A stretch of DNA of 64,000 nucleotides from Solwaraspora sp. WMMD791 (lineage in GTDB: Bacteria; Actinomycetota; Actinomycetes; Mycobacteriales; Micromonosporaceae), in assembly GCF_029581195.1 (NCBI RefSeq), contig NZ_CP120737.1, positions 3,945,001 to 4,009,000 of the forward strand. Direction: 5' to 3'. The notes below the pieces were generated by a model. The model worked only from the letters and a program-made list of their open reading frames with translations, searched no databases and had not been told where the DNA came from. Positions 16,359 to 61,596 of this stretch are shown here, one piece after another. Position numbers and translations under genes: made by a program. Position 1 is the first letter of the stretch. Every line of letters starts with the position of its first letter.

Positions 16359-17723
16359 ATGACCGGACGACCGGATGACCGGGACCAATTCCCGGAGTAC
16401 CCGCAGGAACCCGAACGGACCCAGCAGCACCAGGCATGGCCGGCCGACCAGGCCCAGTGGACGGCAGACCAGGAACAATGGACAGTCGACCGGACCCAGT
16501 GGTCGACCGGGCAGGAGGACTGGCCGGCCGAGCACGCGCACTGGTCAGACGAGCAGGCGCACTGGTCAGGCGATCAGGGACAGTGGTCGACCGAGCAGGC
16601 GCAGTGGTGGACCGGGCAGGCCGTAGCTGATGCACCGGCGTCGGCGGAGCCGGCACCGGAGCCGGTGGTCACCGTCTCGTCGACCGGCGGCGGGGCGCAC
16701 CGACGCCCGGAGCCCACCCGTCGCCCCCGCCGACTGCGCCGGATCGCCCTGCTCGGCATCACCGGCCTGGTGGCCACCGCGCTCGCGGCCGCCGGCGCGG
16801 TCACCCTCGTCGGCCACCACTACCTCGGTGAGATCGAGCGGATTCCCGACCCGTTCTCGGCCATCCCCGCCGAGCAGCGCCCCGCGCCGACCCCGGAGGG
16901 TATGACGTTCCTGCTTGCCGGCATCGACAGCCAGGCACCCGGCGCGACCGGAGCGGACGCCGCCGACACCCCGTACGGGCGCACCGACTCGCTGATGGTC
17001 GTCCGGATCACCGCCGACCATGAGCAGGCGTACGTCGTGTCGATCCCCCGCGACGCCTGGGTGCCGATTCCCGGCCACGACAACTTCAAAATCAATTCGG
17101 CGTACGCCCTCGGCGGGGTCAGCCTGGCCGTCCAGACCGTCGAGAACGCGACCGGCCTGCGGATCGACCACGTCGCGGTGATCGACCTCGCGGGCCTGCG
17201 CGACCTGACCGACGCGGTCGGCGGCGTCACGGTCGACATCCCGGCCGGCACCCCGGGGCTGAGCCTCAACGCCAGCTGGCCGGCCGGCCCACAGCGGCTC
17301 ACCGGTGAGCAGGCCGTCCAGTACGTGCGGCAGCGCCACGGCCTGCCCGAGGGCGACTTCGACCGGATGCGCCGGCACCAGAACTACCTGCGGGCACTGC
17401 TCACCGAGACCCTGGACCGGGACACCCTGACCAGCCCTCGCCAGCTCAGCGCCCTGCTCGACGCGATCACCGGCACGGTCACCGTCGACGACGGGCTAAC
17501 CAACGACAAGCTCCGCCAGCTCACCTTCGACCTGCGCAAGATCCGCAACGACGTCCGATTCGTCACTGCTCCGGTCGCCTCCACCGGCTTCGTCGGCGAC
17601 CAGTGGGTGATGTGGCTCGACACCGAACGCGGCGTGGACTTCTGGAGCGCGGTACGCAACGACGACCTCGACGGCTACATCGACCGGTACGGCGCCGACC
17701 AGCTCGACACCGTCGTGCGCTGA
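16359..17723 (+). CDS. LytR-CpsA-Psr (LCP) family phosphotransferase with Trp-heptad cytoplasmic tail
   Basis: LCP proteins move undecaprenyl-phosphate-linked polymers onto peptidoglycan or other acceptors outside the cell. This one has 454 residues. Residues 1-120 are cytoplasmic and contain nine Trp residues exactly seven apart (27 to 83). One membrane helix follows (LLGITGLVATALAAAGAVTL). The LCP domain begins at MTFLLAGIDS and carries the usual Arg/Asp sites: GRTDSLMVVRI, VSIPRDAWVPIPG, KINSAYALGG, AVGGVTVDI, and YVRQRHGLPEGDFDRMRRHQ. The ATG has AGAGGTGAC 5 nt upstream. It is divergent from the AsnB-like gene and followed by the WxL-like/DUF916 pair. Confidence 0.93.
   Translation: MTGRPDDRDQFPEYPQEPERTQQHQAWPADQAQWTADQEQWTVDRTQWSTGQEDWPAEHAHWSDEQAHWSGDQGQWSTEQAQWWTGQAVADAPASAEPAPEPVVTVSSTGGGAHRRPEPTRRPRRLRRIALLGITGLVATALAAAGAVTLVGHHYLGEIERIPDPFSAIPAEQRPAPTPEGMTFLLAGIDSQAPGATGADAADTPYGRTDSLMVVRITADHEQAYVVSIPRDAWVPIPGHDNFKINSAYALGGVSLAVQTVENATGLRIDHVAVIDLAGLRDLTDAVGGVTVDIPAGTPGLSLNASWPAGPQRLTGEQAVQYVRQRHGLPEGDFDRMRRHQNYLRALLTETLDRDTLTSPRQLSALLDAITGTVTVDDGLTNDKLRQLTFDLRKIRNDVRFVTAPVASTGFVGDQWVMWLDTERGVDFWSAVRNDDLDGYIDRYGADQLDTVVR
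16437..16607 (+). repeat. In-frame 21-bp repeat encoding Trp heptads
   Basis: Eight degenerate 21-bp units encode the pattern W-[ST/P]-x-x-Q-x-[QH]. The TGG codons for residues 27, 34, 41, 48, 55, 62, 69, 76 and 83 of the LCP protein fall every 21 bp. The typical unit is close to TGGTCGACCGAGCAGGCGCAG. The units differ at several bases each, so the periodicity has been kept under selection and is not a fresh slippage product. Confidence 0.9.
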
Positions 17724-21477: not shown

Positions 21478-21547
21478 TCTGCCCTGATAACCTCGGCACG
21501 GCCGACGACCTGGCCAGCGTCCACCCGTCTGACGGAAGAGGTTGCCT

Positions 21548-22483
21548 GTGCGGATCGGGCCCCGGATAGCGACCGTCGTCGTCAACTACCGCAACGATGA
21601 CGACACGGTCCGGTGCCTCACGTCGTTGCAGGCCAGCGAGCACGCCGATCAGCGGATCATCGTGGTCGACAACACCGAGCCGGAGCATTCCGACGCGGTC
21701 CTCGCCGACCTGCTGGACCCTGCCGTCGAGGTGATCACCGTCGGCGACAACGTCGGCTTCGCAGCAGGGTGCAACATCGGTATCCAGGCGGCGCTGCGCA
21801 CCGGCGTCGACTTCGTCTGGCTGGTCAACCCGGACGCGGTGGTCGGTCAGGAGACGCTGGGCCGGCTGCTGGCCACGGCAGCGGACGAGCCGGACGCCGG
21901 CATCGTCGGCTGCCGCATCCTCGACGGTGGGCATCCGGCCCGGATCCTCTTCAACGGCGGGGTCATCACCGGCGCAGGGTCCACGTTCCACGCCAACGCC
22001 GGCGAGTTCGACCCAGCCGTTCCCGACGGCACGGTCCGGGACGTCGACTACGTGACCGGTGCGTGCTTCCTGATCCGGCGGGACACCCTGCACCAGATCG
22101 GCCTGCTGTCCGAGGACTACTTCCTGTACTACGAGGAGACCGACTACTGTCTGCGGGCACAGCGGGCCGGGTGGCGTACCGTCCTCGCACCCCGGGCTCG
22201 GACGTGGCACTACAAGCGGTCGGCCGGGAAACCCCCGCCACCGCACTACGTCTACTACATGTGCCGCAACCGGGTGCACTTCAGCCGGCGTTTCTTCGCC
22301 GCCGCGATCGCGGAGATCGAGGTCGAGTTGGCGCCGTTCATCTCGGGTTGGCGCAAGCAGGTCGCCACCCACGCGCCTGAGCTCGTCGACGCGTACGAGA
22401 AGATCATCGACATCGCACTCGCCGACGGCCGGGAGGGTCGCCTCGGCCGGCGTGACGACATCAGCGACCTCGTGCCCAGCTAG
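21548..22483 (+). CDS. Glycosyltransferase family 2 (rhamnosyltransferase-like)
   Basis: A GT-A enzyme of 311 residues. Hallmarks are ATVVVNYRNDDDTVRCLTSL at the start, VVDN, GDNVGFAAGCNIGI near residue 76, the metal site reading NPDA (WLVNPDAVV) in place of DxD, VTGACFLIRRDTL, and EDYFLYYEETDYCLRAQRAG. This pattern is typical of WbbL/dTDP-rhamnosyl- or galactofuranosyltransferase-like GT2 proteins. The GTG at 21548 is chosen since GGAAGAGG lies 6 nt upstream; TTG 21542 is too close. It precedes, by 113 bp, the large fusion glycosyltransferase and probably works in the same surface glycan pathway. Confidence 0.88.
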   Translation: MRIGPRIATVVVNYRNDDDTVRCLTSLQASEHADQRIIVVDNTEPEHSDAVLADLLDPAVEVITVGDNVGFAAGCNIGIQAALRTGVDFVWLVNPDAVVGQETLGRLLATAADEPDAGIVGCRILDGGHPARILFNGGVITGAGSTFHANAGEFDPAVPDGTVRDVDYVTGACFLIRRDTLHQIGLLSEDYFLYYEETDYCLRAQRAGWRTVLAPRARTWHYKRSAGKPPPPHYVYYMCRNRVHFSRRFFAAAIAEIEVELAPFISGWRKQVATHAPELVDAYEKIIDIALADGREGRLGRRDDISDLVPS

Positions 22484-22596
22484 TCGGACCAAAGTCAGGC
22501 TGGTCGGACCGGACCAGCGTCGGTCGGATCAGATCGGAGTCGGGCGAGCGGCCCCCCGGCTGCCCCGTGTTCACCAGCGCACCTGTGGAGGCGGAC

Positions 22597-25500
22597 ATGA
22601 GCAGGTACTCGTACAGCTTCGACCCCGACGACACCAACAACACCGCCGCCGCGGTCTACCGGTTGGCGTCGACCGGCGGTCAGCGGGTGCTCGACCTCGG
22701 TTCCGGCCCGGGCATCGTCGCCGGAGCCCTCGCCACCGCTGCCGGCCGCACAGTCACCTGCGCCGACGTCGACGTCGAGGCGCTCGCCGAGGCCCGCGCC
22801 GCAGGCGTGGCGGAGACCGTCCTGGTCGACCTGCGGGAACCCGGGTGGACGCGGCAGCTCACCGGACGCGACTACGACGTGGTGATCCTGGCCGACGTAC
22901 TGGAGCACCTGGTCGAACCGGAGCTCGTCCTGCGTGCCCTGCGCGCCGAGGGCATCCTCGCGGCGGACGGCATCCTGGTGGTCAGCTTCCCGAACATGGC
23001 CCACGAGTCGGTGATCCTCGAGCTGATGACCGGCAACTTCGAGTACACCCGGACCGGGCTGCTGGACTCGACCCATCTGCGGTTCTTCACCCGGACCAGT
23101 ATGCAGACCCTGCTGGAGTCCACCGGCTACCTGGTCACCGAGCTGCACCGGACGGTCCGTACCGCCGAACAGACCGCCCAGCGCGCCCGGGCCGTCGAGG
23201 TCGACCCCGAGCTGCGCAAGGTCGTGGCGAAGCTCGGCGAGGACGCCGAGACCTACCAGTACGTCGTCCTGGCCCGGCCCTCGACCGAGGCGGTACGGAT
23301 CAACCTGGCCGAGCGGCGGCTCACCGCCGAACACTCGGCCCACCTGAGCGTCCTGACCGACAATCAGCGCCTGGCCACCCAGCTGGAGCAACTGCAGCAC
23401 CGGCACCAACAGCTGGACGTGCAGCTGCGCCGGGCCCAGGACGCCGTCGCCCAGGAGCGACTCGACGCGCTGCAGGCCCGCGAGATGCAGCGCCGGGCCG
23501 AGCAGGAGCGCGTCGACTTCCAGGCCAAGCTCAAAGAGAGCCAGGCCAGGCTCAAGGAGGCCCAGGACAAGGCGCGGGCGCTGCAGGACAAGGCCAACAA
23601 GCTCCAGGCCCGGGTCCAGCAGCTGACCACCAGCAACACGTACCGGGCCGGAAAGATGGTCCGCTACGTCCTGCGGCCGGCCGAAGGCATGCGGGCCGTC
23701 AAACGGCGGCGGGGGCGCGCCGCCGGCCGCGCCAGCGGCGGCGGTGCCAGCACCGACGGAGCCGATGGTCGCGGTGCACCGGTCACCCCGGTTCCCGACC
23801 ACTTCCGGACGCTGACCGCCGACCCGGCGGTCCGCCACGCGTACGAGACGGCCTGCCGACAGGACCGGTTCCACGCCACCGGGGCGGTACGGGTGGCGTT
23901 CTGTGTCTCCACGACCGACCTGGACGCCGGTCGTGGCGACCTCTACGTAGCGGTGGGCATCGGCCGCCACCTGCAACGGCGCGGCTACGAGGTGGCGTAC
24001 CTGCCGGCCGACCGGTGGACCGATCTGCCACCGGACACCGACATCACGGTCGCGATGATCCCCACGTTCGATCCGTTGGCCGTACCGGACGACTGCCGGA
24101 CCATCGCCTGGGTCCGCAACGAGACCGACACCTGGCAGCAGCACCCGCACCTGGCACTGTTCGACATGGTCGTCGCGTCGTCGTCGGTGTCGCTGAACCG
24201 GCTACGGGACCGCTACGACGGGCCGACCGGGGTGCTGCCGCTCGGGGTGGACACCGAACTGTTCACCCCGCCGGCCGAGGACCGGCCCCGGGTCGGTGCG
24301 GTGACCACGGTGAACAACTGGGGCCGGCAACGGCATCTGTACCAGTGCCTGGGCGGGCTCGATCTCGAGTTCCCGTTCGTCATCTTCGGGGAGCTGCGCC
24401 GTCTCGACTCCTGGTTCTCCCGCTACGGAGCCGGTCCGACCAGCTACTTCAACCTGCCGGAGATCTACCGGCGGTCGCTGCTGGTGCTCGACGACCTGAA
24501 CCACACCACCCGCCCGTACGGCAACGTCAACTCCCGGCTGATGGAGAGCCTCGCGGCGGGCGCGCTGCCGGTGACGAACAGCCGGGTCGGCCTGGCCGAA
24601 CTCGGGCTCGACGAGCTGCCGGTCTACCACGACACGACGAGCCTGGGCGAGGCGCTGGGCCGGTTGACCGCCGACCCGGCCGGCACGGCGGCGCTGGCGC
24701 GGCGGTTGGCCGACGTGGTCCACGAACGGCATTCCTACGAACGCCGGGCCGAGGAGCTGGACGCGCTGGTCGGTGGTCTCGACCGGCGACCCCGGCGGGC
24801 CCGTGACCGGTTCGTCGGCGTGTATCCGTACTATGTAGACAATCCGTACCAGATGGTACTGATGTCGGGTCTGCGCGACGCCGGAGTGCGGTGGTTCCCG
24901 GTCCCGGACGTCGTCGATGCCGCGCCCGCGCCGCACCTGACCGGCGGACGGTTGGACAACTACATCCTGCACGTGCACTGGACCGACCCGATCGTGCATC
25001 CGGCGACCGACGCCGGGCAGGCGGCCGCCCGGCTGGCCGGGTTCCGGGAGCGGGTCCGCGACCTGCGTCGCCGGGGCGGGCGGCTGATCTGGACGATCCA
25101 CAACGTCTTCCCCCACGAATGCAAGTACCCGGAGGTGGAACGGGAGCTGGCGGCGTTCCTCGCCGCCGAGGCCGACGTGGTGCACGTGCTCTGTCCGGAG
25201 ACGGCCGCCGCGGTCGCACCGCACTACGTGCTGCCACCCGACCGGACCCGGGTGATCCGGCACAGCAGCTACCTCGGGGTGTACCCGGACGCGGTGAGCC
25301 GGCTCGCCGCCCGACGCCGGTTCGGCTTCGACTCCGACGATCACGTCCTGCTGTTCTTCGGCGGGATCCGACCGTACAAGGGGGTCGGGGAACTGCTGGA
25401 CGCGTTCGACGCGGCCGCCGCGCGCGATCCCCGGCTGCGGCTGGTCGTCGCCGGCGCCGCCAAACGGCTCGACCCCCGGGACGACCTGCCGCAGCGGTGT

Positions 25501-25929
25501 GCCGGCGACCCACGGATCACCGCAGTGTTCGACCCCGTCGCCGACGAGGAGATCCAGTTCTACTTCAAGGCGGCGGACTCCGTGGTGCTGCCGTACCGGT
25601 CGGTGCTCAACTCGGGCAGTTTCCACCTCGCGGTGTCGTACGGGCGGCCGGTCGTGGCACCCCGGGTGGGCGCCCTGCGGTCGTTGCTGGATCCGGCGTA
25701 CACCGTCGGGTACGACCCGGACGACCCCGACGGGCTGATCGAGGCGTTGCTGGCCGCGACCGCGCTGCGGGGCCGGCAGGTGGAGCTGGCCGCGCGGGCC
25801 GCTGCCGGCACCTACCGGTACGGCGAGATGGCACGCGACTACGCCGCGCTGGTGACCGAGTTGTTCGCGGCACCGGTCGGCGCCGGACTGGGCACCGCCA
25901 CTGTGGATGGCACTATGGATGATCATTAA
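22597..25929 (+). CDS. Fusion protein: methyltransferase, coiled coil and two glycosyltransferase domains
   Basis: A cytoplasmic protein of 1110 residues. Residues 1-220: class I SAM methyltransferase (RVLDLGSGPGIVAGAL, LADVLEHLVEPELVLRAL, VSFPNMAHES). Residues 255-355: a continuous coiled coil rich in Gln, Glu and Lys (QLEQLQHRHQQLDVQLRRAQ). Residues 405-735: a GT4/CgeB-like glycosyltransferase (PLGVDTELFTPP, NSRLMESLAAGALPVTNSRV). Residues 750-1105: a second GT-B (VHWTDPI, TIHNVFPHE, LLFFGGIRPYKGVGELLDAF, YFKAADSVVLPYRSVLNSGS). The last domain closely resembles the whole protein at 50692-51873. The ATG has GGAGG 5 nt upstream. The coiled coil probably measures distance or drives oligomerisation, as in WbdD-type chain-length regulators. 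Confidence 0.88.
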   Translation: MSRYSYSFDPDDTNNTAAAVYRLASTGGQRVLDLGSGPGIVAGALATAAGRTVTCADVDVEALAEARAAGVAETVLVDLREPGWTRQLTGRDYDVVILADVLEHLVEPELVLRALRAEGILAADGILVVSFPNMAHESVILELMTGNFEYTRTGLLDSTHLRFFTRTSMQTLLESTGYLVTELHRTVRTAEQTAQRARAVEVDPELRKVVAKLGEDAETYQYVVLARPSTEAVRINLAERRLTAEHSAHLSVLTDNQRLATQLEQLQHRHQQLDVQLRRAQDAVAQERLDALQAREMQRRAEQERVDFQAKLKESQARLKEAQDKARALQDKANKLQARVQQLTTSNTYRAGKMVRYVLRPAEGMRAVKRRRGRAAGRASGGGASTDGADGRGAPVTPVPDHFRTLTADPAVRHAYETACRQDRFHATGAVRVAFCVSTTDLDAGRGDLYVAVGIGRHLQRRGYEVAYLPADRWTDLPPDTDITVAMIPTFDPLAVPDDCRTIAWVRNETDTWQQHPHLALFDMVVASSSVSLNRLRDRYDGPTGVLPLGVDTELFTPPAEDRPRVGAVTTVNNWGRQRHLYQCLGGLDLEFPFVIFGELRRLDSWFSRYGAGPTSYFNLPEIYRRSLLVLDDLNHTTRPYGNVNSRLMESLAAGALPVTNSRVGLAELGLDELPVYHDTTSLGEALGRLTADPAGTAALARRLADVVHERHSYERRAEELDALVGGLDRRPRRARDRFVGVYPYYVDNPYQMVLMSGLRDAGVRWFPVPDVVDAAPAPHLTGGRLDNYILHVHWTDPIVHPATDAGQAAARLAGFRERVRDLRRRGGRLIWTIHNVFPHECKYPEVERELAAFLAAEADVVHVLCPETAAAVAPHYVLPPDRTRVIRHSSYLGVYPDAVSRLAARRRFGFDSDDHVLLFFGGIRPYKGVGELLDAFDAAAARDPRLRLVVAGAAKRLDPRDDLPQRCAGDPRITAVFDPVADEEIQFYFKAADSVVLPYRSVLNSGSFHLAVSYGRPVVAPRVGALRSLLDPAYTVGYDPDDPDGLIEALLAATALRGRQVELAARAAAGTYRYGEMARDYAALVTELFAAPVGAGLGTATVDGTMDDH

Positions 25930-25938: not shown

Positions 25939-27285
<1,347 letters not shown>

Positions 27286-27286
27286 A

Positions 27287-28171
27287 ATGACCCGGCAGAT
27301 TCTCGACCAGGTCCGGACCGGCCTCGCCGCCAGCGCCACGGTGCTGCTCGCCGCCGGTGCCGTCACGCTGCTCGACCCGGCCCCGCGACCGGCCACGGCC
27401 GACGGGCCGACACCGCTGCCCGCCGACGCGACCCTCACCAAGGCCGGTACGTCGTTCCTCACCGCGGCGGCGGTCAACATCGACCAGCCGGTCCGGGTCG
27501 CCGCCGCCACCGGCGAGTACCTGTACTGGTCGTTCCCGGCGGTCGCCGGCCAGACCAGCACCATCTCCGCGACGGTCACCCTGGCCGATCCGGCCGACCG
27601 CGGCGGTCCGTCCACCTGGTCGGTCGACGTCTTCGACGGACTCCGCCGCCGACAGCCCTGCACGGCCGGCATGCAGTCACCGACCGGTGCCGCCACCGAC
27701 CGGGAGATCCGGGCCGGCTGCGTGCTCCGGCAGGTACGCGGCTGGGCCGAGCCGTGGTCGGCCGACCCGCTGCCCGGCACGTACTTCGTCCGGATCGCCG
27801 TCACCGACGTGCCCGAGTCCGACCTCGGACTACCGGTGCAGGTCGAGTTGCGGATCAGCGCCGAGGTCTCTGACGACGTCACTCCGGAAGGTGGGCGACT
27901 CGACGCCCCGCTGACCCCGACGGCCAGGCAGGGCGCGGTGCTGACCACGGTCGCGGACGACAGCACCACGGCCTACGGCGCCGCCGCTGACGCCGGTGAC
28001 ACCGACGACGGGCAGTGGTGGTGGGAACGGCTGGCCGGCTGGTTCGCCGACCGGCTGCCCGCGTTCTCCAGCCGGTGGGTCTGGACCACCATCGGCGGGG
28101 TGCTCGCCGCCGTCGGTGGCGTCGTCGGCTTCGGCCTGACCCGGCGTCCCCGGCGGCCGACTGTCAACTGA
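27287..28171 (+). CDS. Membrane-anchored extracellular protein, partner of the VWA protein
   Basis: A protein of 294 residues I cannot assign to a named family. It has a signal-like helix (ASATVLLAAGAVTLL), a beta-rich region resembling a pre-peptidase/jelly-roll domain (EYLYWSFPAVAGQTSTISAT and GTYFVRIAVTDVPESDLGLP), and two Cys pairs. A Trp-rich juxtamembrane segment (GQWWWERLAGWFADRLP) and a terminal membrane helix (IGGVLAAVGGVVGFGL) follow. It starts one base after the VWA stop. The same two-gene order (VWA protein, then a jelly-roll protein with a single anchor) suggests an extracellular complex held to the membrane by both partners. Confidence 0.75.
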   Translation: MTRQILDQVRTGLAASATVLLAAGAVTLLDPAPRPATADGPTPLPADATLTKAGTSFLTAAAVNIDQPVRVAAATGEYLYWSFPAVAGQTSTISATVTLADPADRGGPSTWSVDVFDGLRRRQPCTAGMQSPTGAATDREIRAGCVLRQVRGWAEPWSADPLPGTYFVRIAVTDVPESDLGLPVQVELRISAEVSDDVTPEGGRLDAPLTPTARQGAVLTTVADDSTTAYGAAADAGDTDDGQWWWERLAGWFADRLPAFSSRWVWTTIGGVLAAVGGVVGFGLTRRPRRPTVN

Positions 28172-50691: not shown

Positions 50692-51873
50692 TCAGGTCGT
50701 CGGGTCCAAGTGGCGGCGCAGCTCGGTGGCGAGCAGGTCGCTGACCTGTGCCGGGGCGAGCGGTCCGAGGTGGTCGCGCAGCGCCGTACGGACCGTGTCG
50801 GCGGCCGCCCAGCCGCTCCCGGTCGCCTCGGTGATCACCTCGGCGGCCTTGTCGGGGTCGGCGAGGTCGAACCGGCGCAGCGCGGCGTCGGGCATCAACC
50901 CGCCGACGGTGGTGCCGGTCGAGACGAACGCCGGCAACTCGAACCCGGCCGTCAGGGCCAACGCACCGGAGTTCAGCGACGACCGGTACGGGTAGACGGC
51001 GGCGTCCGCAGCGCGCAGGAAGTACTGCACGTCGGAGTCGGGGGCGAAGCCGGGGTGGAAGACGACCGCCGGGTGTTCGGCGGCGCGGCGCATGAACTCG
51101 GGCCCGCCGGTCTCCTCCCGGACCTTGCCGGCGACCAGCCAGCGCAGTCGCGGGTCGTGGCGGGTCGCGGCGTCGAGTACGTCGAGAAAGTCGGTGTGTC
51201 CCTTGTACGGTCGGACCTGGCCGAAGGTGACCAGTAGCCGGGCACCGAGCGGGATCCCCAGATGGCTGCGGGCCGCAGCCCGGTCCACCCAGTCCGGGTA
51301 CGCCCCGACGAAGGTCGGATGCCGGGCGACGACCACCTGCCGGGGCGAGGTGCCGAACGCCTCCTGCAGGATCTCCAGGTGGCTGTCGTGCATCAGGTGG
51401 ACGACGTCGGCGGCGACCAGCATCACCTGCCGCAGCCGGGTCTCGGTCTGCCGGTGCACGGTCTCGTGCGGCAGCAGATTGTGCACCGTCCAGACCAGCC
51501 GTACGCCGTCGGCCCGCAGACTGTCCAGTGTGGCCGCAAAGGCGTCGACGGCGGCCTCGGCCCGCGCGGTGGTGGCGCAACCGGCGGTGACGTCGTACAG
51601 CCAGTGGACGTGCAGCACCCGGGTGACGCCGTCCGGCAGCGCGGGCAACAGGCGGTCGAGCTGGTCGAGGCGCCGGATCCGGATCGGCACCAGGTTGTGC
51701 CGAGGGAACCGGCTGTAGATCAACGACTGGTACGGGTTGGCCGAGTCCACCGGCCAGTGCAGCCAGGCGATCGGCGGGCGGGCGCGGTCCGCCCAGTCGG
51801 CGGCGGCGAGGGCGGACAACGCATCGTCGACGAGGTGGCCGGCGGAGGTGCCCCGACGCCAGGGAACGATCAC
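50692..51873 (-). CDS. GT-B glycosyltransferase (GT4-like)
   Basis: A 393-residue glycosyltransferase. The acceptor domain has WLHWPVDSANPYQSLIYSRF, VHWLYDVTAG and LVWTVHNLLPHETVHR; the donor domain has LLVTFGQVRPYKGHTDFLDV and YFLRAADAAVYPYRSSLNSG. The order and spacing match the last domain of the fusion protein at 22597-25929, so the two are paralogues. Its GTG overlaps the stop of the preceding unknown gene by 4 nt (51870-51873), so it is translationally coupled. Confidence 0.88.
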   Translation of the reverse strand: MIVPWRRGTSAGHLVDDALSALAAADWADRARPPIAWLHWPVDSANPYQSLIYSRFPRHNLVPIRIRRLDQLDRLLPALPDGVTRVLHVHWLYDVTAGCATTARAEAAVDAFAATLDSLRADGVRLVWTVHNLLPHETVHRQTETRLRQVMLVAADVVHLMHDSHLEILQEAFGTSPRQVVVARHPTFVGAYPDWVDRAAARSHLGIPLGARLLVTFGQVRPYKGHTDFLDVLDAATRHDPRLRWLVAGKVREETGGPEFMRRAAEHPAVVFHPGFAPDSDVQYFLRAADAAVYPYRSSLNSGALALTAGFELPAFVSTGTTVGGLMPDAALRRFDLADPDKAAEVITEATGSGWAAADTVRTALRDHLGPLAPAQVSDLLATELRRHLDPTT

Positions 51874-52478
51874 GGTTGACCACCGTACCGGGCGCCGATG
51901 CCGGCGGCGACCGCCCGGGCGACCGGGGCGCTGGCGGCGTCCGCGGAATGCACGGTGGTGACCTGACGGTCGGCCGCGAGCCGGGTCAGCACGCCGGTGG
52001 TGAGCTGGTCGACGAGCGCGGGCGGCAGCTCGGCCCAGGCGGCCCGCCAGTACGCCAGCGGCTCGTCCTCGTCACCGACGGTGACCTGCAGCGGAGCAGT
52101 AGCGGTCGGCCGCCGTACGGTCAGCCGGGTGGCCGCCTGGTCGGCGATGAGCGATTTACCCCGTTCGGTCGGATCCTGGTCGGTCGGATCCTGCGGGCAG
52201 TGACCTACCGCCGGTGCCGGTGCCCCGGTGCCGATCAGTCGCGCCGCGCGCTGTTCACCCTCATTGGCAACCCCCCGCTGCACCATGCGCAGCAACACCG
52301 CGTTCACCATCGCCCGATCACCCTTGTCGTTGGCAATCTTGGCGAGTACCCGAATCTCGTTCGGGGTAATGTTCGGGCTGTACAGTAGCGCCGCTGGTTG
52401 CATGATCCGCGCCCGGGAGCGACGAAGCACATTCCTGACCGGACGCAGCAGGCGACGTACCCTAGGCAAATAGGTCAC
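51870..52478 (-). CDS. Unknown protein coupled to a glycosyltransferase
   Basis: A 202-residue protein of unknown family. The amino terminus is very basic (YLPRVRRLLRPVRNVLRRSR), suggesting membrane-surface or nucleic-acid contact. A helical block (NITPNEIRVLAKIANDKGDR) follows, and the end is Ala-rich with short strands. No signal peptide and no catalytic motif are visible. A TAATCT box (52485-52490) lies 6 nt before the GTG at 52478, so the message is leaderless. The stop overlaps the glycosyltransferase start, so it likely assists that enzyme. The divergent GT2 gene starts 37 bp away. Confidence 0.68.
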   Translation of the reverse strand: MTYLPRVRRLLRPVRNVLRRSRARIMQPAALLYSPNITPNEIRVLAKIANDKGDRAMVNAVLLRMVQRGVANEGEQRAARLIGTGAPAPAVGHCPQDPTDQDPTERGKSLIADQAATRLTVRRPTATAPLQVTVGDEDEPLAYWRAAWAELPPALVDQLTTGVLTRLAADRQVTTVHSADAASAPVARAVAAGIGARYGGQP

Positions 52479-52484
52479 TGATCC

Positions 52485-52490
52485 AGATTA
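52485..52490 (-). promoter_or_regulatory. -10 box of the unknown gene at 51870-52478
   Basis: TAATCT on the minus strand, 6 nt before GTG 52478; no ribosome binding site between. Confidence 0.5.
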
Positions 52491-52515
52491 CCCAGTCGTG
52501 ACACGAGGTGAGCGC

Positions 52516-54168
52516 GTGCCATCCCCGACGGTCAGCGTCGTCGTCCCGGTCTACAACACCGAAAAGTGGCTCGAAGAGGCACTCGACTCGATCGAACGAC
52601 AGCCCGCCCGGGACCGCATCGAGGTAGTCGTCATCGACGATGGCTCCACCGACGGCTCGGCCGACATCGCGCGCCGGTACGCCGACCGGGCCACCGGGGT
52701 GCGCTACGTCCGCCAGGACAACGCGGGCCTGGGCGCGGCACGCAATCATGGGGTACGCCTCGCCACCGGCCGCTACCTGGCCTTTCTTGACTCCGACGAT
52801 CTCTACCCCGACGGGGCGCTGAGCTACCTCGTCGACCTCGCCGACCGCGAGCAGGCGGCGGTGGCCGTCGGTGACATGCAGGGACTGCCGCCCCGGCCCA
52901 ACCCGGCGTGGCGTCGGGAGCTGCTCGTCGGGGAACGGGTCGTGGAGCGGATCGCCCAGGCCCCCGGCCTGGTCGGCAACCCGTCGGCATGCAACAAGAT
53001 CTTCCGGCGTGACCTGGTCGACTCGACCGGTGTCCGGTTCACCGAGAACACGGCCTTCGAAGACGTGCTGTTCACCGTACCGGTGCTGGCCCGTTCCCCA
53101 CGGACGGCGCTGACCCCCCGGCTGAGCTATCTGTACCGGCAGCGCGGGGACAACTCCTCGCTGATGGACACCCGCAGTCAACCGCTACGGATCATGCAGC
53201 ACGTCGCCATCGTCGAGCAGCTCGCCGACGAGTGCCGCGACCTGCCGTCCGACGACCGCGACGCGGTGTACCGGTGGATCGCCTACATGCAGCTGCACTA
53301 TGCGTGGCGGGCCGCGAACGGCTGTGACGACGAACAGCTCGACGAATTCACGATCCGGATGCACACCCTGTTCAAGGACATCCCGGTGCGGTTGGCGACC
53401 GAGTTCGTCAGCAACGCCGGTGCCGGGTTGCGCGCCGCCGCGATCTACGAACAGAATCCGGCGACCATCCGGGAGCCCCGGTCCGCGCTGCCACTGCGGG
53501 TGTACGCCGGACAGGCCTACCTGGGGCACACCGATTTCGACGCCTACCGCGACCTGCTGCTCATCCGGGAGATCACGGCGACCGTGCACCGCATGCGCGG
53601 CAGTGGGCCGGCCATCGCACTCGAAGGCAGCGTCCGCACCAAGGGGATCGACGGCGAGCCCGGTCAGGTACGCCACGACCTGCTGGTGGAGATCGGCGAC
53701 GGGCTGGCCCGACAGCCGGTCACGGTGCTCCGGCGGACCGGCAACGACCTGCGCTGGTCCTGCACGATCCCGGTCGACCACCTGCCCGGTGGGCGCTACG
53801 ACGTGCGGGTCGTGGTGCGCGACAACGACCGGGAGTACGCCGTACCGCCGGGTCCTCAGCAGGGCGGCCGGGGCACCCGCGGCACCCGCCCGACGCGGAT
53901 CGGTACCCGGGTCGGCTGGCTGACCCCGGGGCCGGACGGCGCGCGGTTGATCATCACCGACACCGCTGGTGCCGTGGCCCGCAGCCCGCAGTGGCTGTCC
54001 CAGATGGGCGCTCGGCAGAGCCGGTCGTTGTGGGGCCGGGCGTGGGGCACCGCCCGACGTACCGCCCGCAACCGGCTGCGGCCGACCACGCCGACCGCAC
54101 CGCCGCCGGCGGCTCCGGCCTCGTCGCCGTCGGCTCCGGCCTCGTCGCCGTCGCCGCCCGCGCGCTGA
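52516..54168 (+). CDS. Glycosyltransferase family 2 with beta-rich tail
   Basis: A 550-residue GT-A enzyme. The catalytic domain covers residues 1-320: SVVVPVYNTEKWLEEALDSI, VVVIDDGSTDGS, QDNAGLGAARNHGV, the metal site FLDSDDLYPDGAL, and SACNKIFRRDLV. The rest (330-510) is a beta-rich domain (PVTVLRRTGNDLRWSCTIPV then GGRYDVRVVVRDNDREY) like that of wall-teichoic-acid glycosyltransferases, ending in a Pro/Ala/Ser tail with repeated ASSPSAP. GTG at 52516 is chosen for GAGGTGA 4 nt upstream. It faces away from the GT4 gene and meets the convergent GT2 gene at 54192. Confidence 0.9.
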   Translation: MPSPTVSVVVPVYNTEKWLEEALDSIERQPARDRIEVVVIDDGSTDGSADIARRYADRATGVRYVRQDNAGLGAARNHGVRLATGRYLAFLDSDDLYPDGALSYLVDLADREQAAVAVGDMQGLPPRPNPAWRRELLVGERVVERIAQAPGLVGNPSACNKIFRRDLVDSTGVRFTENTAFEDVLFTVPVLARSPRTALTPRLSYLYRQRGDNSSLMDTRSQPLRIMQHVAIVEQLADECRDLPSDDRDAVYRWIAYMQLHYAWRAANGCDDEQLDEFTIRMHTLFKDIPVRLATEFVSNAGAGLRAAAIYEQNPATIREPRSALPLRVYAGQAYLGHTDFDAYRDLLLIREITATVHRMRGSGPAIALEGSVRTKGIDGEPGQVRHDLLVEIGDGLARQPVTVLRRTGNDLRWSCTIPVDHLPGGRYDVRVVVRDNDREYAVPPGPQQGGRGTRGTRPTRIGTRVGWLTPGPDGARLIITDTAGAVARSPQWLSQMGARQSRSLWGRAWGTARRTARNRLRPTTPTAPPPAAPASSPSAPASSPSPPAR

Positions 54169-54191
54169 TCAGGATCAGGCCGCCCCGGGTC

Positions 54192-56510
54192 TCAGTTCGC
54201 CACCAGCGCCACCCGGTACAGCCGCTCCGGCTCCAGCCGCAACCGGGGCAGCGCCACCGGGCCCGGTCCCACCTGACCCGCCCCGTCCCGGATCCGCAGC
54301 GACATCGACAACTCATGCACCCGGTCGTCGTCCGCCGACCGGTAGCCGAACCACCAGCGCCCCGGCTCCGGCCGGTCGGGGCCGTCCGCCGGTACCCGCA
54401 CCAGCCAACCTTCGTCGACCGCTTCGACCGGCAGTTCCCGGTCCGCCGGGGCCGCCGGGTCCCGCAGGTCGTCGGCGTGGCGCAGCACCACCGACGACGG
54501 CGCCGCGTCGACCGGACACGCACCGCCCAGGGTGACACCGGCCTCCTCGACGGTGGCCCAGGTCGCCAGCGGCCCGGCCGGTAGCACCCGGATCGACAGC
54601 TGCCCCTGATCGGCCGACTCGACCAGCAGACCCGGCCCCCCGGGCAGCGGACGCAGCTCGGTGAAGTCGGCGCCGACCGGCAACCCGCGCCCGGCGGAGG
54701 CGTCGGCACCGCCGTCGATGTGCCAGCCCACCAGCCAGCCGACCGCCGGGTCGCCGACCGCAGCCGGTCGCGCGGGTGCCGCCGGACCGGTCAGCAGGTC
54801 GTCCAGCGGAATCCGGCAGCTGAACCCGGTGCCGCCCGACGAGGGCCCGACGGCGTCGTCGGGCCGGGTCGGATACCGCCGGGCCACGATCATCGGGGTC
54901 CGGGCCAGGGTCAACGCCGACGGCACCGGAGCACCGGCGACGGCCGTACCGCTGATCACCAGATCCTCGCCGACCAGCCGGGCCGCCGCCGCCCACACCG
55001 ACGGGTGTTCCACCCGCAGTCGCAGCGCTCCGTCGTGCAGCACCGGCACCACCCGTACCCCGGGTGCCACCCAGACCGCCGGTAACGCCGGCACCACCTC
55101 GCCGACCTTGACCGGCCCGCTCTCCGGCCCGCCTGCCACGTCGATCACGCCCGCCATCACCAGCCACGTCGCCGGCGGCCAACTGGCGGCGGAGCGCAGC
55201 GCCAGAACCGGCAACGACGTGGCGAACCCGGACCAGGCCGGCAGGTCGTCCGTCGCCGGGTCCGCCGCGATGGTCCGGCGAGGCAACAGCCGCGACCTGG
55301 CCGGTGCCGGCCCCAACCGGCGGCGGCGGCCCTGCTCGCTCAGCCACAGGGCGCGCAGCTGCGGCCCCGGCGGCGCGTCCGACGCCGCCGGAGTCCGCAG
55401 GACGTGTCCGGAGATCCGCAGCTGCCCGGCCGACCAGGAGATCGCCCGTAGCGTCGTACGCAGCCGGGGCGTCGGGCGGTACAGCGCCGCCGGGACGTCG
55501 CTGACCCTCGGCGGTACGCCACCGGACCGGGTCGCGGTGACCACGCGCAGCAGCTCCGGCAGCCGACCGTCGCGGGCCAGCCGCCACGCCACCCGTAACC
55601 GGGGATCGAGCCGGTCCGGCACCGCCGGATCCACCTCGGCGAGGAACTCCGCCGCCAGCTGGCAGAACCGCTGCCGGTACGCCACGTCCGACACCTCCGG
55701 CAGCAGGTGCAGGAACATCCGCAGGTCGCTGCGCAGCGCGGTGGCGTCGTAGTGGTTCTTCAACGACCGGTCACCGGTCGCGGCCAGTGACCGGCTGGCG
55801 CTGCGTACCGCCGCGAAGCGGTCCACCAGGTTGGCGACCTCGGCCTGTCGCTGGCTGATCGACTCCTCGGCACCCGCTTCGCGCTGCCGCCAGTGGTAGA
55901 CCACCGTGGGCAGCACGTCGATCGACTCGGCCAGCGCGTACGCCGGGATCGTCACCGGGATGTCCTCGTAGCGCACCCCTTCGGGAAACCACAGGTCGTG
56001 GCCGGTCCAGAAGTCCCGCCGGAACACCTTGTTGCAGGCCAGCCGGTCGTAGACGAGGTTTCGGCGACGGCGCAACCGGGTGCCGAGCCAGGTCTGTCGG
56101 TGGGTGCCGCGGTGCAGCGGCGACTGCCACAGCCCACGTGAGTTGAACAACGCCACGTTGCCGGAGGCGATCTGCGAACCGGTCGACTCCACCGCGCCGA
56201 CCAGCACCTCGAAGGCGTACGGCGGCAGCACGTCGTCGCTGTCGACGAACGCCAGGTAGTCGCCGGTGGCCGCGCGGATGCCGGTGTTGCGGGCCGCGCC
56301 GAGGCCCTGGTTCGGCTGGCGGATCAGCTGGAACCGGGCATCGGCGGCGACCCGGGCGGCGGCGATGTCGCCGCTGTCGTCGGTCGACCCGTCGTCGACC
56401 AGGACGATCTGAACGTCGGAATGGGTCTGCGCGGCCAGCGAATCGAGACATTCGGTCAGGTAGCGGGCCACGTTGTAGATCGGAACGACGACGCTGAGCA
56501 GGGCACCCAT
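54192..56510 (-). CDS. Glycosyltransferase family 2 with long beta-rich carboxyl region
   Basis: A 772-residue protein. Residues 1-320 are a GT-A domain: LLSVVVPIYNVARYLTECLD, VLVDDGSTDDSGDI, QPNQGLGAARNTGI, FVDSDDVLPPYAF and LACNKVFRRDFW. The remaining 450 residues contain two or more beta-sandwich units (LRISGHVLRTPAA, LVISGTAVAGAPV, RWWFGYRSADDDRVHELSMS) of the same kind as the tail of the 52516-54168 protein, but duplicated. It starts 8 nt after the stop of the GT2-TagF gene, with GGAGCAGGG as ribosome binding site inside that gene's end. It is part of the polymer operon reading leftward from 60963. Confidence 0.88.
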   Translation of the reverse strand: MGALLSVVVPIYNVARYLTECLDSLAAQTHSDVQIVLVDDGSTDDSGDIAAARVAADARFQLIRQPNQGLGAARNTGIRAATGDYLAFVDSDDVLPPYAFEVLVGAVESTGSQIASGNVALFNSRGLWQSPLHRGTHRQTWLGTRLRRRRNLVYDRLACNKVFRRDFWTGHDLWFPEGVRYEDIPVTIPAYALAESIDVLPTVVYHWRQREAGAEESISQRQAEVANLVDRFAAVRSASRSLAATGDRSLKNHYDATALRSDLRMFLHLLPEVSDVAYRQRFCQLAAEFLAEVDPAVPDRLDPRLRVAWRLARDGRLPELLRVVTATRSGGVPPRVSDVPAALYRPTPRLRTTLRAISWSAGQLRISGHVLRTPAASDAPPGPQLRALWLSEQGRRRRLGPAPARSRLLPRRTIAADPATDDLPAWSGFATSLPVLALRSAASWPPATWLVMAGVIDVAGGPESGPVKVGEVVPALPAVWVAPGVRVVPVLHDGALRLRVEHPSVWAAAARLVGEDLVISGTAVAGAPVPSALTLARTPMIVARRYPTRPDDAVGPSSGGTGFSCRIPLDDLLTGPAAPARPAAVGDPAVGWLVGWHIDGGADASAGRGLPVGADFTELRPLPGGPGLLVESADQGQLSIRVLPAGPLATWATVEEAGVTLGGACPVDAAPSSVVLRHADDLRDPAAPADRELPVEAVDEGWLVRVPADGPDRPEPGRWWFGYRSADDDRVHELSMSLRIRDGAGQVGPGPVALPRLRLEPERLYRVALVAN

Positions 56511-56518
56511 CGGGCGGT

Positions 56519-58717
56519 TCAGCCCTGCTCCCCGAGCAATGCCCGGCGGACCACCCGCTCGGCCGCGCGCCCGTCGTCGAGGTGGCAGAACCGGGCGCGG
56601 AACTGGGTCCGGGCCTTGACCGCGGCGTCGTCGCCGACCGCACCGGTACGGAAGACGTCGAGCAGGTGTCCGAAGGTGGTGGCGACGGCACCCGGCGGCT
56701 CGGCGGTGATGTCGAAGTAGACGCCACGGGCCATCGCGTACGCCTCGGCGTCCGGCGCGTAGATCACGATCGGCCGGTCCAGGACCGCGTAGTCGAACAT
56801 CGCCGAAGAATAGTCGGTGACGAGTACGTCGGCCGCGAGGTACAGGTCCTCGACGACCGGATAGCTGGACATGTCCCGGATCCGACCGCTGGCCGGGGCG
56901 TCCGGGGCCCGGCCGGTGCGCTGCCGGTCGTGGAAGTAGTGGCTGCGGATCAGCAGCCAGGCGTCCGGGCCGAGCACTTCGGCCAGGGCGTCGGCGTCGA
57001 AGTCGGGTTGCCAGCCGGGCTGGTGTTCCCGGTGCGTCGGCAGGTAGAGCACGACCCGCTCGCCGGGGCCGATGCCGAGCGCTGTACGGGCCGCCGCCAC
57101 GTCGGCGTCGGTGGCCAGCGCCAGCCGGTCGTTGCGCGGGTAGCCGGTGTCGAGCGAGACGAAGTCGCCCGGGTAGGCCCGCTCCCACATCTGGGTGGAG
57201 AAGTGGTTCGCGCTGACGCTGAAGTCCCACCGGTCGATGCGGCGCAGCAGATGGGGGAAGTTCATCGACGCGGCGCCGACCGGGTGCCGCTGCTGGTCGA
57301 GCCCCATCACCTTGACCGGAGTGCCATGGTGGGTCTGGATGTGCACCGATCCGGGCCGCTTACGCACGTAATCGGGGAAGTTCACGTTGTTGATCAGCCA
57401 CTTGGCGCGGGCCAGCGCCCGGTAGTAGCGCCAGGTGCCGGCGACGACGTACCGGACGCCGGTCGGCATGCTGGCCGCCCGGTCCCGGCGGACCACCCAG
57501 ACCCCGTTGATGTGTGGTGCCAGCTCGGCCGCCTTGGCGTAGATCGCCGCCGGGTTGCAGCTGTAGCCGCGGTACCAGTAGGCGGCGTACAGCGCCATCG
57601 ACTGGTCCATCGGCAGGCGCAGTTGGATCCGGTAGTAACCGAGCAGCGCCGTCCGCCGTCCGGTGCGGGCCAGTTCGCGCAGGCCGCGCTTGACCGGGCG
57701 GCCGATCCGCTTGACCGTGGAGATCAGCTTCTTGCGGGCGCGTTGGCCGACCCGCAGCGCGGCGAAGGTCCGCCAGCGGTTGGCGGCGAGCAGCCGGCGT
57801 TTGAGCCCTTCGACACCGCCGGGCACGGGGTACCCGCCGGGCGGGAGCCGGCGCTGGTAGTCGGCGTGGGCGCGGGCGAAGAACTGCTGATGCAGCTGCG
57901 GGGGCAGCCGGCCGCTGTGGCCGAGCACCATCAGGTAGTGCGAGATCATCAGAGCGAACAACTGCGGCCGTACGGCGTCGACCTGCGGCCCACGCTGGTC
58001 CAGCCAGTCGAAGGTGTGTCCCCAGTGGTCGAACATCTCGAAGTGCCGGGGGCTGCGGGTCCGGGTGATCGCACCGGTACGCCGCTGCCGGTAGTTGACG
58101 CACACGCGGTCGAGTACGGTGACCCGCTCGGCGGCGACCAGCAGCGGGAAGGTGAACGAGACGTCCTCGTACCAGCCGTCGGCGAACCGCAGTCCCAGGT
58201 CCACCAGGAACTGTCGCCGGGTGACCTTGTTCCAGGCGGTGTGCAGCACCTTGAGCGTCTCGGGCCGGGTCCGTACGTCGAACACCTCGGCACCGGGTGA
58301 CGTGGGGAACGCCTGCCGCAGCGCGCTGGCCGATTCGTGGAAGTTCCAGAACACCCGCACGTGGTCGACGATCAGCACGTCCGGGGTGGTGTCACGGAGC
58401 CGGTTGGCGACCGCGCGCAGCGATCCGTCGGTCAGCCAGTCGTCGCTGTCGAGGAACCAGACGTACTCACCGGTCGCCACGTCCAGCCCGGCGTTGCGGG
58501 CACCGCCGAGGCCGGCGTTGGCCGGCAGGGACAGCACCCGGAGCCGGGGGTCGCGGGCGGCGTACTCGGCGAGGATCTGCCCGGAGCTGTCCGGGGAGCA
58601 GTCGTCGACCGCGATCACCTCGATGTCGGTGAACGACTGGTCGAGAATCGAGTCGAGGCATTCTCGCAGGTAACCCTGCACCTTGTAGACCGGCACGACA
58701 ATGCTGATCAATGTCAT
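56519..58717 (-). CDS. Fusion of GT2 and CDP-glycerol glycerophosphotransferase (TagF-like)
   Basis: A 732-residue bifunctional enzyme for a teichoic-acid-like polymer. Residues 1-310: GT2 domain (ISIVVPVYKVQGYLRECLDS, IAVDDCSPDSSG, WFLDSDDWLTDGSL, TAWNKVTRRQFLVDLGLRFA). Residues 375-725: CDP-glycerol:poly(glycerophosphate) glycerophosphotransferase with the Tag motifs HIQTHHGTPVKVMG, VLYLPTHRE and VTDYSSAMFDYAVLDRPIVI. A basic linker (GQRARKKLISTVKRIGRPVK) between them probably lies on the membrane. It would add both a sugar and an alditol phosphate. The start overlaps the upstream CDP-alcohol phosphotransferase stop (TGATG). Confidence 0.92.
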   Translation of the reverse strand: MTLISIVVPVYKVQGYLRECLDSILDQSFTDIEVIAVDDCSPDSSGQILAEYAARDPRLRVLSLPANAGLGGARNAGLDVATGEYVWFLDSDDWLTDGSLRAVANRLRDTTPDVLIVDHVRVFWNFHESASALRQAFPTSPGAEVFDVRTRPETLKVLHTAWNKVTRRQFLVDLGLRFADGWYEDVSFTFPLLVAAERVTVLDRVCVNYRQRRTGAITRTRSPRHFEMFDHWGHTFDWLDQRGPQVDAVRPQLFALMISHYLMVLGHSGRLPPQLHQQFFARAHADYQRRLPPGGYPVPGGVEGLKRRLLAANRWRTFAALRVGQRARKKLISTVKRIGRPVKRGLRELARTGRRTALLGYYRIQLRLPMDQSMALYAAYWYRGYSCNPAAIYAKAAELAPHINGVWVVRRDRAASMPTGVRYVVAGTWRYYRALARAKWLINNVNFPDYVRKRPGSVHIQTHHGTPVKVMGLDQQRHPVGAASMNFPHLLRRIDRWDFSVSANHFSTQMWERAYPGDFVSLDTGYPRNDRLALATDADVAAARTALGIGPGERVVLYLPTHREHQPGWQPDFDADALAEVLGPDAWLLIRSHYFHDRQRTGRAPDAPASGRIRDMSSYPVVEDLYLAADVLVTDYSSAMFDYAVLDRPIVIYAPDAEAYAMARGVYFDITAEPPGAVATTFGHLLDVFRTGAVGDDAAVKARTQFRARFCHLDDGRAAERVVRRALLGEQG

Positions 58718-60963: not shown

Positions 60964-61356
60964 ATCCGCGCTTCCGTCGTACGAGCCGGGAGCGACCGGC
61001 GCTCCGAGGGGTGGCGTCGCCCGGCGGCGGCCCGTGACGACACCACCTGTCCGACGGCTGGGGAGACCGTCGGGCGGACGACGCGGGCAAGGTTAGCAGT
61101 CGGTGAACAAAGCGGGTAGCGCACACATCCGGCAGGTGACGCGGACGGGAGCCGACCCGATCGACCGGTTGCGATGATCTTGATCAGATCAGGGTAGGAC
61201 CCGTACGGGAGCCGCCATCGCCGATCCGTCGCAGGACTGAGGGAGCCGGCCGGCGGCACCCCTACCGTTGAAGATGGCTGGCAGTCGCGATCCAGTGACG
61301 GAGGGCGGCCGACACCCGACAGGGGCAGCCGAGACTAGTGGACAAGGAGCGTGGCG
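60964..61356. other. Intergenic region between the CDP-alcohol phosphotransferase and PspC genes
   Basis: No gene is visible in this 393-bp stretch. It must hold the divergent promoters of the polymer operon and the PspC-domain gene. A perfect 7-bp inverted repeat CCGACGG/CCGTCGG stands at 61051-61057/61067-61073. I see no convincing TANNNT box next to either start, and both genes have ribosome binding sites, so their transcripts have ordinary leaders. Confidence 0.5.
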
Positions 61357-61563
61357 ATGAGCCGCAAACTGGTACGACCCCGCGACGGACGGATGATCGC
61401 CGGTGTCTGCGCCGGCCTGGGCCGGCGGTTCGGCATCTCGGCCGGGATGGTCCGGTTGCTGTTCCTGCTCTCCCTACTGCTTCCCGGCACCCAGGTGATC
61501 ATCTACCTGGCGCTCTGGATCATCATGCCGAACGAGGACCGGTACCTCGCCACCTCGCACTGA
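61357..61563 (+). CDS. PspC-domain membrane protein
   Basis: A 68-residue protein with a single PspC domain: KLVRPRDGRMIAGVCAGLGR, FGISAGMVRLLFLLSLLLPG and VIIYLALWIIMPNE. PspC domains sense membrane stress or anchor partners; stand-alone forms are common in actinobacteria. The ATG at 61357 is chosen since AAGGAG lies 7 nt upstream; the GTG at 61351 is too close to it. It converges with the AftA-like gene. Confidence 0.9.
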   Translation: MSRKLVRPRDGRMIAGVCAGLGRRFGISAGMVRLLFLLSLLLPGTQVIIYLALWIIMPNEDRYLATSH

Positions 61564-61596
61564 CCGTGGTCACCGCCGGACGAGGCACGACGGTGC

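Follow-up and report, generated by a model that had tools for sequence, protein, structure and literature searches.

A methyltransferase, coiled-coil and glycosyltransferase fusion protein in Solwaraspora and its possible role in capping and measuring an exported glycan

Can a single polypeptide of an actinomycete both extend a glycan and determine where the chain ends? This question is raised by one gene of Solwaraspora sp. WMMD791 (contig NZ_CP120737.1), which lies on the plus strand at 22597..25929 of the 64,000-nucleotide stretch analysed here, called the window throughout. An earlier note had described its product as a methyltransferase (MT), a coiled coil and two glycosyltransferase (GT) domains of the GT-B type in one chain, and had proposed that such a chain could unite the polymerase and the capping terminator of a surface glycan, with the coil as a ruler. 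The description is confirmed by translation, by Pfam and by the heptad period of the coil, and the order in the protein is MT, coiled coil, basic tail, GT-B and GT-B. As to the proposal, the reading that we favour is that the fusion is a membrane-associated, oligomeric enzyme of glycan assembly whose MT is carried on a rod and which caps and measures a glycan exported by an ATP-binding cassette (ABC) transporter; its probability is put at about 0.4. Capping and ruler action by the enzyme are plausible by analogy with known terminators.

The open reading frame (ORF) at 22597-25929 (+) translates into 1110 residues with zero internal stops, and an alternative start is present 10 codons upstream, at 22567. 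The G+C content at third codon positions (GC3) is 0.91. An overall G+C content of 72%, the Actinophytocola relatives named below and the AftA_N and LytR-CpsA-Psr genes of the window point to an actinobacterial host. Pfam places Methyltransf_23 at residues 26-182 (5.8e-13), Glyco_trans_1_2 at 590-721 (2.1e-15), Glyco_transf_4 at 817-888 (5.6e-8) and Glyco_trans_1_4 at 916-1053 (2.8e-13). The full fusion was found in one open frame in all seven sampled genomes of the genus, the other six orthologues being 70-95% identical, and a frameshift or an assembly artefact is therefore excluded. In a sample of 61 genomes of relatives it was present in seven, all from the genus, and the remaining 54 gave zero matches spanning it. 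Samples of the phylum (396 genomes) and of the order (101) gave a full-length match in the genome of origin only, in searches where the candidates scored for each genome were limited in number and with the family thinly sampled. Among plasmids, nine records matched, every one in the GT parts and none covering 80% of the protein, and a scan of named genome contigs gave five loci, all of the MT type, with Actinophytocola relatives among them. A duplicate locus (L019, of L011) and two partial ones (L031 and L088) were omitted.

Does the first domain look like a working methyltransferase? Class I enzymes that use S-adenosylmethionine (SAM) are recognised by a glycine-rich SAM loop and by an acidic residue after strand 2, and both are present in the sequence motifs of residues 1-223 (22597..23265, +), which can be assigned to the Methyltransf_23 family by the profile match, by alignments and by a PDB sequence match, the best being 3cc8. 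The domain carries the SAM loop D33-G39, the motif D100-V-L-E-H-L and T159-H-L-R. Loss of the SAM-binding residues in orthologues, which the earlier note had named as one of two refuting outcomes, was not seen: DLGSGPG (33-39), D57 and DVLEHL (100-105) are invariant in 7/7 genus orthologues, and G35, G39, D94, D100, E103 and H104 in 16/16 aligned homologues (five from the genus and 11 others, separate MT-coil proteins included). Distant MT homologues, about 27-37% identical, were kept in the MT profile and excluded from the coil counts. WbdD structures were absent among the PDB matches listed for the MT (10 of 10; best 60 of 224). The MT and the coil nearly abut, with no WbdD-type kinase detected between them, and no kinase family was found among all 14 Pfam matches to E 0.1 or among 25 of the 33 NCBIfam matches, so a WbdD-like kinase was dropped as a candidate part of this protein.

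What, then, holds the MT apart from the GT domains? The coiled coil occupies about residues 232-345 (23290..23631, +). Over residues 224-345 the hydrophobic period is 3.49, the power at 3.5 was equalled in only 0.1% of 5000 shuffles, and the stretch contains one proline and zero glycine. Between the MT and the motif SNTYRAGK there are 122, 122, 115, 115, 115, 122 and 94 residues in the seven proteins, with differences of 0, -7 or -28. The changes map to residues 306-333 (23512..23595, +), where a whole block of 28 residues is lost in one orthologue and seven residues, near residue 322, are lost in three. The length of the coil thus differs in whole heptads only, by one 7-residue and one 28-residue change, and the MT, the proximal coil (224-305) and the tail are of constant length in all seven; each GT domain differs by at most one residue. 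Changes of one and four heptads fit a register-bound rod; they support a rod and not by themselves a ruler. As the rise is 0.15 nm per residue in a coil, about 114 residues would give roughly 17 nm; the shortest coil, that of G002 with 28 residues fewer, would lose about 4 nm and measure about 13 nm. The coil is followed by the SNTYRAGK motif and a basic amphipathic tail at residues 346-372 (23632..23712, +), a stretch whose length of 27 residues is the same in every one of the seven orthologues. Over the 40 residues that start at 346 the net charge is +10, and the moment over 18 residues reaches 0.55 against a 95th percentile of 0.47 for the protein; such a tail probably contacts the membrane, judging from its composition. 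Next comes a low-complexity linker at residues 372-433 (23713..23892, +), which varies in length by 0, +2, +2, +7, -1 and +6 in the six other orthologues.

The chain ends in two GT-B domains. The first, of the Glyco_trans_1_2 type, covers residues 433-735 (23893..24801, +; Pfam and alignment) and the second, GT4-like, covers residues 736-1090 (24802..25866, +; Pfam, PDB matches and alignment). For both, a profile match is accompanied by conserved C-terminal motifs, which places them in these GT-B families. G-N-x-N-x-R, G-G-I-R-P-Y-K and L-N-S-G are invariant in 6/6 aligned coil-GT-GT sequences, three of them from the genus (three of its seven members being used). The EX7E glutamate pair is the classical GT motif; it is not evident in the second domain, and because of this the activity of that domain is not assured. 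Large proteins with one domain of GT family 2 (GT2) and two Glyco_trans_1_2 domains, related to the first GT-B domain, were observed in other genomes of the phylum (L041, L042, L043 and L055).

How could these parts work together? In the favoured reading the basic tail would rest against the cytoplasmic membrane on its inner side, and the two GT-B domains beside it would add their presumed sugars to a lipid-linked glycan begun by a neighbouring GT2 enzyme. The coil would keep the MT away from the membrane, and once the chain end came to lie at the distance of the MT its terminal sugar could be O-methylated and growth would stop. The finished chain could then leave through an exporter of the TagGH or Wzm-Wzt type. 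A candidate for the first step is encoded directly upstream of the fusion, at 21542..22483 (+), by a GT2 gene (PF13641, 2.4e-19) with a weak match to GlfT1. Its homologue stands beside the fusion gene in 7/7 genus genomes, and further homologues were found beside a coil-GT-GT gene in G262 (L057, 45% identical), near an MT-coil gene in L030 (51%) and, as a weak homologue of 29%, near an MT-coil gene in G435 (L058).

Is there an exporter to receive the product? None of the 16 ABC2_membrane matches of the genome falls in the 64-kb window, and for the other six genus genomes the question was covered by gene order over 20 kb. This absence is what one would expect if the fusion made a glycolipid or a short saccharide, with one sugar added by each GT and one methyl group by the MT, and two GTs with a GT2 could indeed make a tri- or tetrasaccharide. 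Such a product is unlikely, since the GT-GT half sits in Wzm/Wzt operons of two other genomes (G262 and G523) and a LytR-CpsA-Psr gene (16359-17723; Pfam), which precedes the GT2 gene by about 4 kb, is kept in the same neighbourhood in 7/7 genus genomes. Wzm and Wzt in the same cluster were found only for these MT-less relatives and not for the fusion. The same operons, together with the basic amphipathic tail, point to a membrane-linked chain and make it very improbable that the protein serves a cytoplasmic pathway of polymethylated polysaccharides like the mycobacterial methylmannose polysaccharides, although an MT and a GT4-like domain do share one protein. Elsewhere in the genome, at 2.292 Mb, a permease was found that is 43% identical to the Wzm of G262, the second match being 25%, and an ATPase gene overlaps the end of its gene. 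Both this pair and the G262 pair match the galactan_ABC_perm/_ATP and TagH models below the cut-offs.

It should be noted here that the two halves of the fusion also occur as separate proteins. MT-coil-tail proteins that end soon past the basic tail are encoded in a metagenome-assembled genome of Actinophytocola (L030, G517) and in G435 (L038), with identities to the fusion of 61% over residues 2-235 and of 48%, respectively. Coil-tail-GT-GT proteins without an MT are encoded in G085 (L035), G262 (L036) and G523 (L097), with 40-42% identity over residues 290-1091 or less. In G262 and G523, which by their kinship label belong to the same phylum as the host and to a different class, the gene order is GT2, coil-tail-GT-GT, Wzm, Wzt; the contigs are short (6.1 and 10.1 kb), and the lack of an MT gene there is for this reason weak evidence. 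An ABC-2 permease-like ORF, so judged by eye, was observed at L098 1032-1904, on the contig that carries the coil-GT-GT gene of G085. When the fusion protein was searched against G085, G262, G435 (80% complete), G070 and G517, none of these genomes gave both halves, weak matches apart, so that they look like joined modules and not like a proven pair; obligate split partners were dropped as an explanation. A fuller history, in which the fusion is a single-chain Gram-positive polymerase, ruler and methyl cap that arose when an MT-coil protein was joined to a coil-GT-GT polymerase whose ABC-exported glycan had no cap, with the rod since changed by one and four heptads within one genus, is less likely than not.

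A number of observations weigh against capping and measuring by the fusion. As to the coil, the chance that both changes are multiples of seven is about 1 in 49, with only two independent events; slippage at heptad repeats would yield equal whole-heptad changes; one difference in the linker is likewise +7; and heptad-stepped changes are expected of any register-bound coil. In addition, the phylum sample often contains generic MT proteins whose match, at about 31-34%, runs on into the coil, at least eight reaching past residue 285. Some 1.7 Mb separate the Wzm/Wzt pair of the genome from the fusion gene, and the pair may export a different polymer. What counts most against a strict WbdD/O7 reading is that the Wzt proteins of this genome, G262 and G523 (273, 269 and 266 residues) show an ATPase domain and no domain for cap binding; in the genome itself a cap-binding C-terminal domain was absent from the likeliest Wzt, the candidate partner, no other Wzt having been searched for. 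Every terminated O-antigen example is said to have a cap-binding module on its Wzt (PMC11231755). In G085, G262, G435 and G517, each of which has one half, the other half was absent beyond weak matches (MT 34-35% in G085, GT 30% in G517). Finally, L051 1-2532 (-) of G182 encodes an MT and then two GT2 domains in one frame, in an O7-like order. Its coil is not claimed, as the observed power was reached by 5-19% of shuffles, and MT-GT-GT chains therefore exist without a convincing rod.

The distribution of the coil itself argues in the same direction. In L030 three proteins end in a coil and an S-x-[ST]-[FYW]-R-x-G tail, namely the GT2, the MT and, after a TylF-like gene, a coil-only protein of roughly 97 residues. 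Since the module is carried by a GT2 and by a coil-only protein, the coil may act as an anchor or a docking tag. The glycan cluster at L030 5706-12077 contains a sulfotransferase, the GT2 with coil-tail, a Stealth-family protein, the MT-coil-tail protein, a TylF-like methyltransferase and the short coil-tail protein, and in both clusters examined sulfotransferase genes are found close to the MT-coil-tail genes. The coil and tail pattern gave ten distinct matches among 3566 frames, read from stop to stop and 100 residues or longer, all in the coil-tail proteins described here or in genus orthologues; it was drawn up after the first examples had been seen, and it misses L035, which like L097 carries a variant. 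One could therefore take coil and tail as an exchangeable anchor or docking module that gathers the enzymes of one pathway, the MT methylating within the repeat or decorating it, with neither ruler nor cap. This alternative is a serious one, short of even odds and nearly as likely as the polymerase-terminator, and it would account for the module on the MT alone, on GT-GT proteins alone and in variants, for the simple Wzt proteins, for the heptad steps and for L051. It does not explain why in the genus a long coil stands between the fused MT and both GTs, which is the order of known terminators, and an MT that merely decorates has no need to be held apart. Our data indicate that the proposal of the earlier note stands in part: the domain order, the SAM loop and GT motifs, the heptad-stepped coil with its basic tail, the GT2 partner and the GT-GT exporter operons of two genomes, as read from sequence, speak for a polymerase-terminator, and the Wzt proteins, the coil-tail on other proteins and the coil-less L051 speak against it.

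The neighbourhood, for which genes were called by a simple codon-bias script, is largely shared within the genus. Nine bases downstream of the fusion gene is a gene for a VWA-domain protein (25939..27285, +; Pfam), a neighbour in 7/7 genus genomes, and it adjoins in all seven a gene whose product has no Pfam match (27287..28171, +). In G002 the fusion and VWA genes are about 4 kb apart, with other ORFs in the gap; two extra ORFs lie there (L065 4157-7529), one transposase-like by eye. Three genus genomes have an extra gene without a counterpart in the window just upstream of GT2 (L061 13357-15591, L062 5281-7536 and L063 5024-7300); the L061 product is alpha-amylase-like with CBM20 matches, and the likeness of the L062 and L063 copies was judged from no more than their first residues. 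At L065 12563-14881 there is an unclassified ORF of comparable size. The window also contains a second glycan region at 50692-63543, with a GT4-like gene whose GT domain is 35% identical to the second GT-B domain of the fusion, a GT2, a GT2-TagF-like glycerophosphotransferase (PF04464), a CDP-alcohol transferase/DUF5941 protein and an AftA_N protein; these may be teichoic-acid and arabinan genes.

What would follow if the enzyme does cap and measure its own product? The coil-ruler strategy would reach beyond Gram-negative O antigens, and the seven species, with MT-to-tail stretches of 94, 115 and 122 residues, would form a natural series, with longer glycans expected where the coil is longer. 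The separate halves suggest how all-in-one enzymes can arise. Glycan ends can matter in actinomycetes, as Streptomyces wall glycans are described as differing between species, non-reducing ends included, and as targets to which the lectins of umbrella toxin particles bind (PMC13274773).

Among known systems the closest is ORF6 of Klebsiella pneumoniae O7, which has an N-terminal MT-kinase terminator, a central coil and two C-terminal GT2 modules (PMC11231755). As in the fusion, the terminator lies across the coil from the GTs in one chain and a further GT is a separate protein. In ORF6 the MT and the coil are separated by a kinase and a carbohydrate-binding fold. In the fusion no kinase was detected, the GTs belong to the GT-B type, and the window did not yield an exporter gene. 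WbbB of Raoultella terrigena/Klebsiella O12 likewise joins polymerase, coil and terminator in a single polypeptide, but its terminator is a Kdo (3-deoxy-D-manno-oct-2-ulosonic acid) transferase and not an MT, and its GT modules are GT99, GT102 and GT103 (PMC11231755). The fusion has a terminator-type domain (the MT, a putative terminator), a coil and two GTs in the same order as O7 ORF6/O12 WbbB. The architecture is thus known from O7 and O12 and is not a new kind of machine. The WbdD-WbdA system of E. coli O9a and O8 differs from the fusion in that the terminator is a protein distinct from the polymerase; it is similar in having the MT at the far end of the coil, an amphipathic helix after the WbdD coil and a two-module polymerase, and insertions into that coil lengthen, and truncations shorten, the O antigen (PMC5082667). 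Methyl caps without a kinase do exist, in the E. coli O8 enzyme, which methylates without one (PMC3482155), and in the Aquifex O antigen, which has 3-O-methyl sugars at its ends (PMC9445017). Among Gram-positive wall polymers, the systems of TagGH and the mycobacterial galactan exporter are also close, by the below-cut-off matches of the Wzm/Wzt pairs and by the weak GlfT1 match of the GT2, and the operons seen here contain GT2, coil-GT-GT, Wzm and Wzt. In the open-access literature no report of such an enzyme in Gram-positives was found. What sets the fusion apart from the known cases is the lack of any kinase found, the GT-B modules and a probable Gram-positive host, together with the useful new facts of separate halves with their operons and of coil lengths that differ by whole heptads within one genus.

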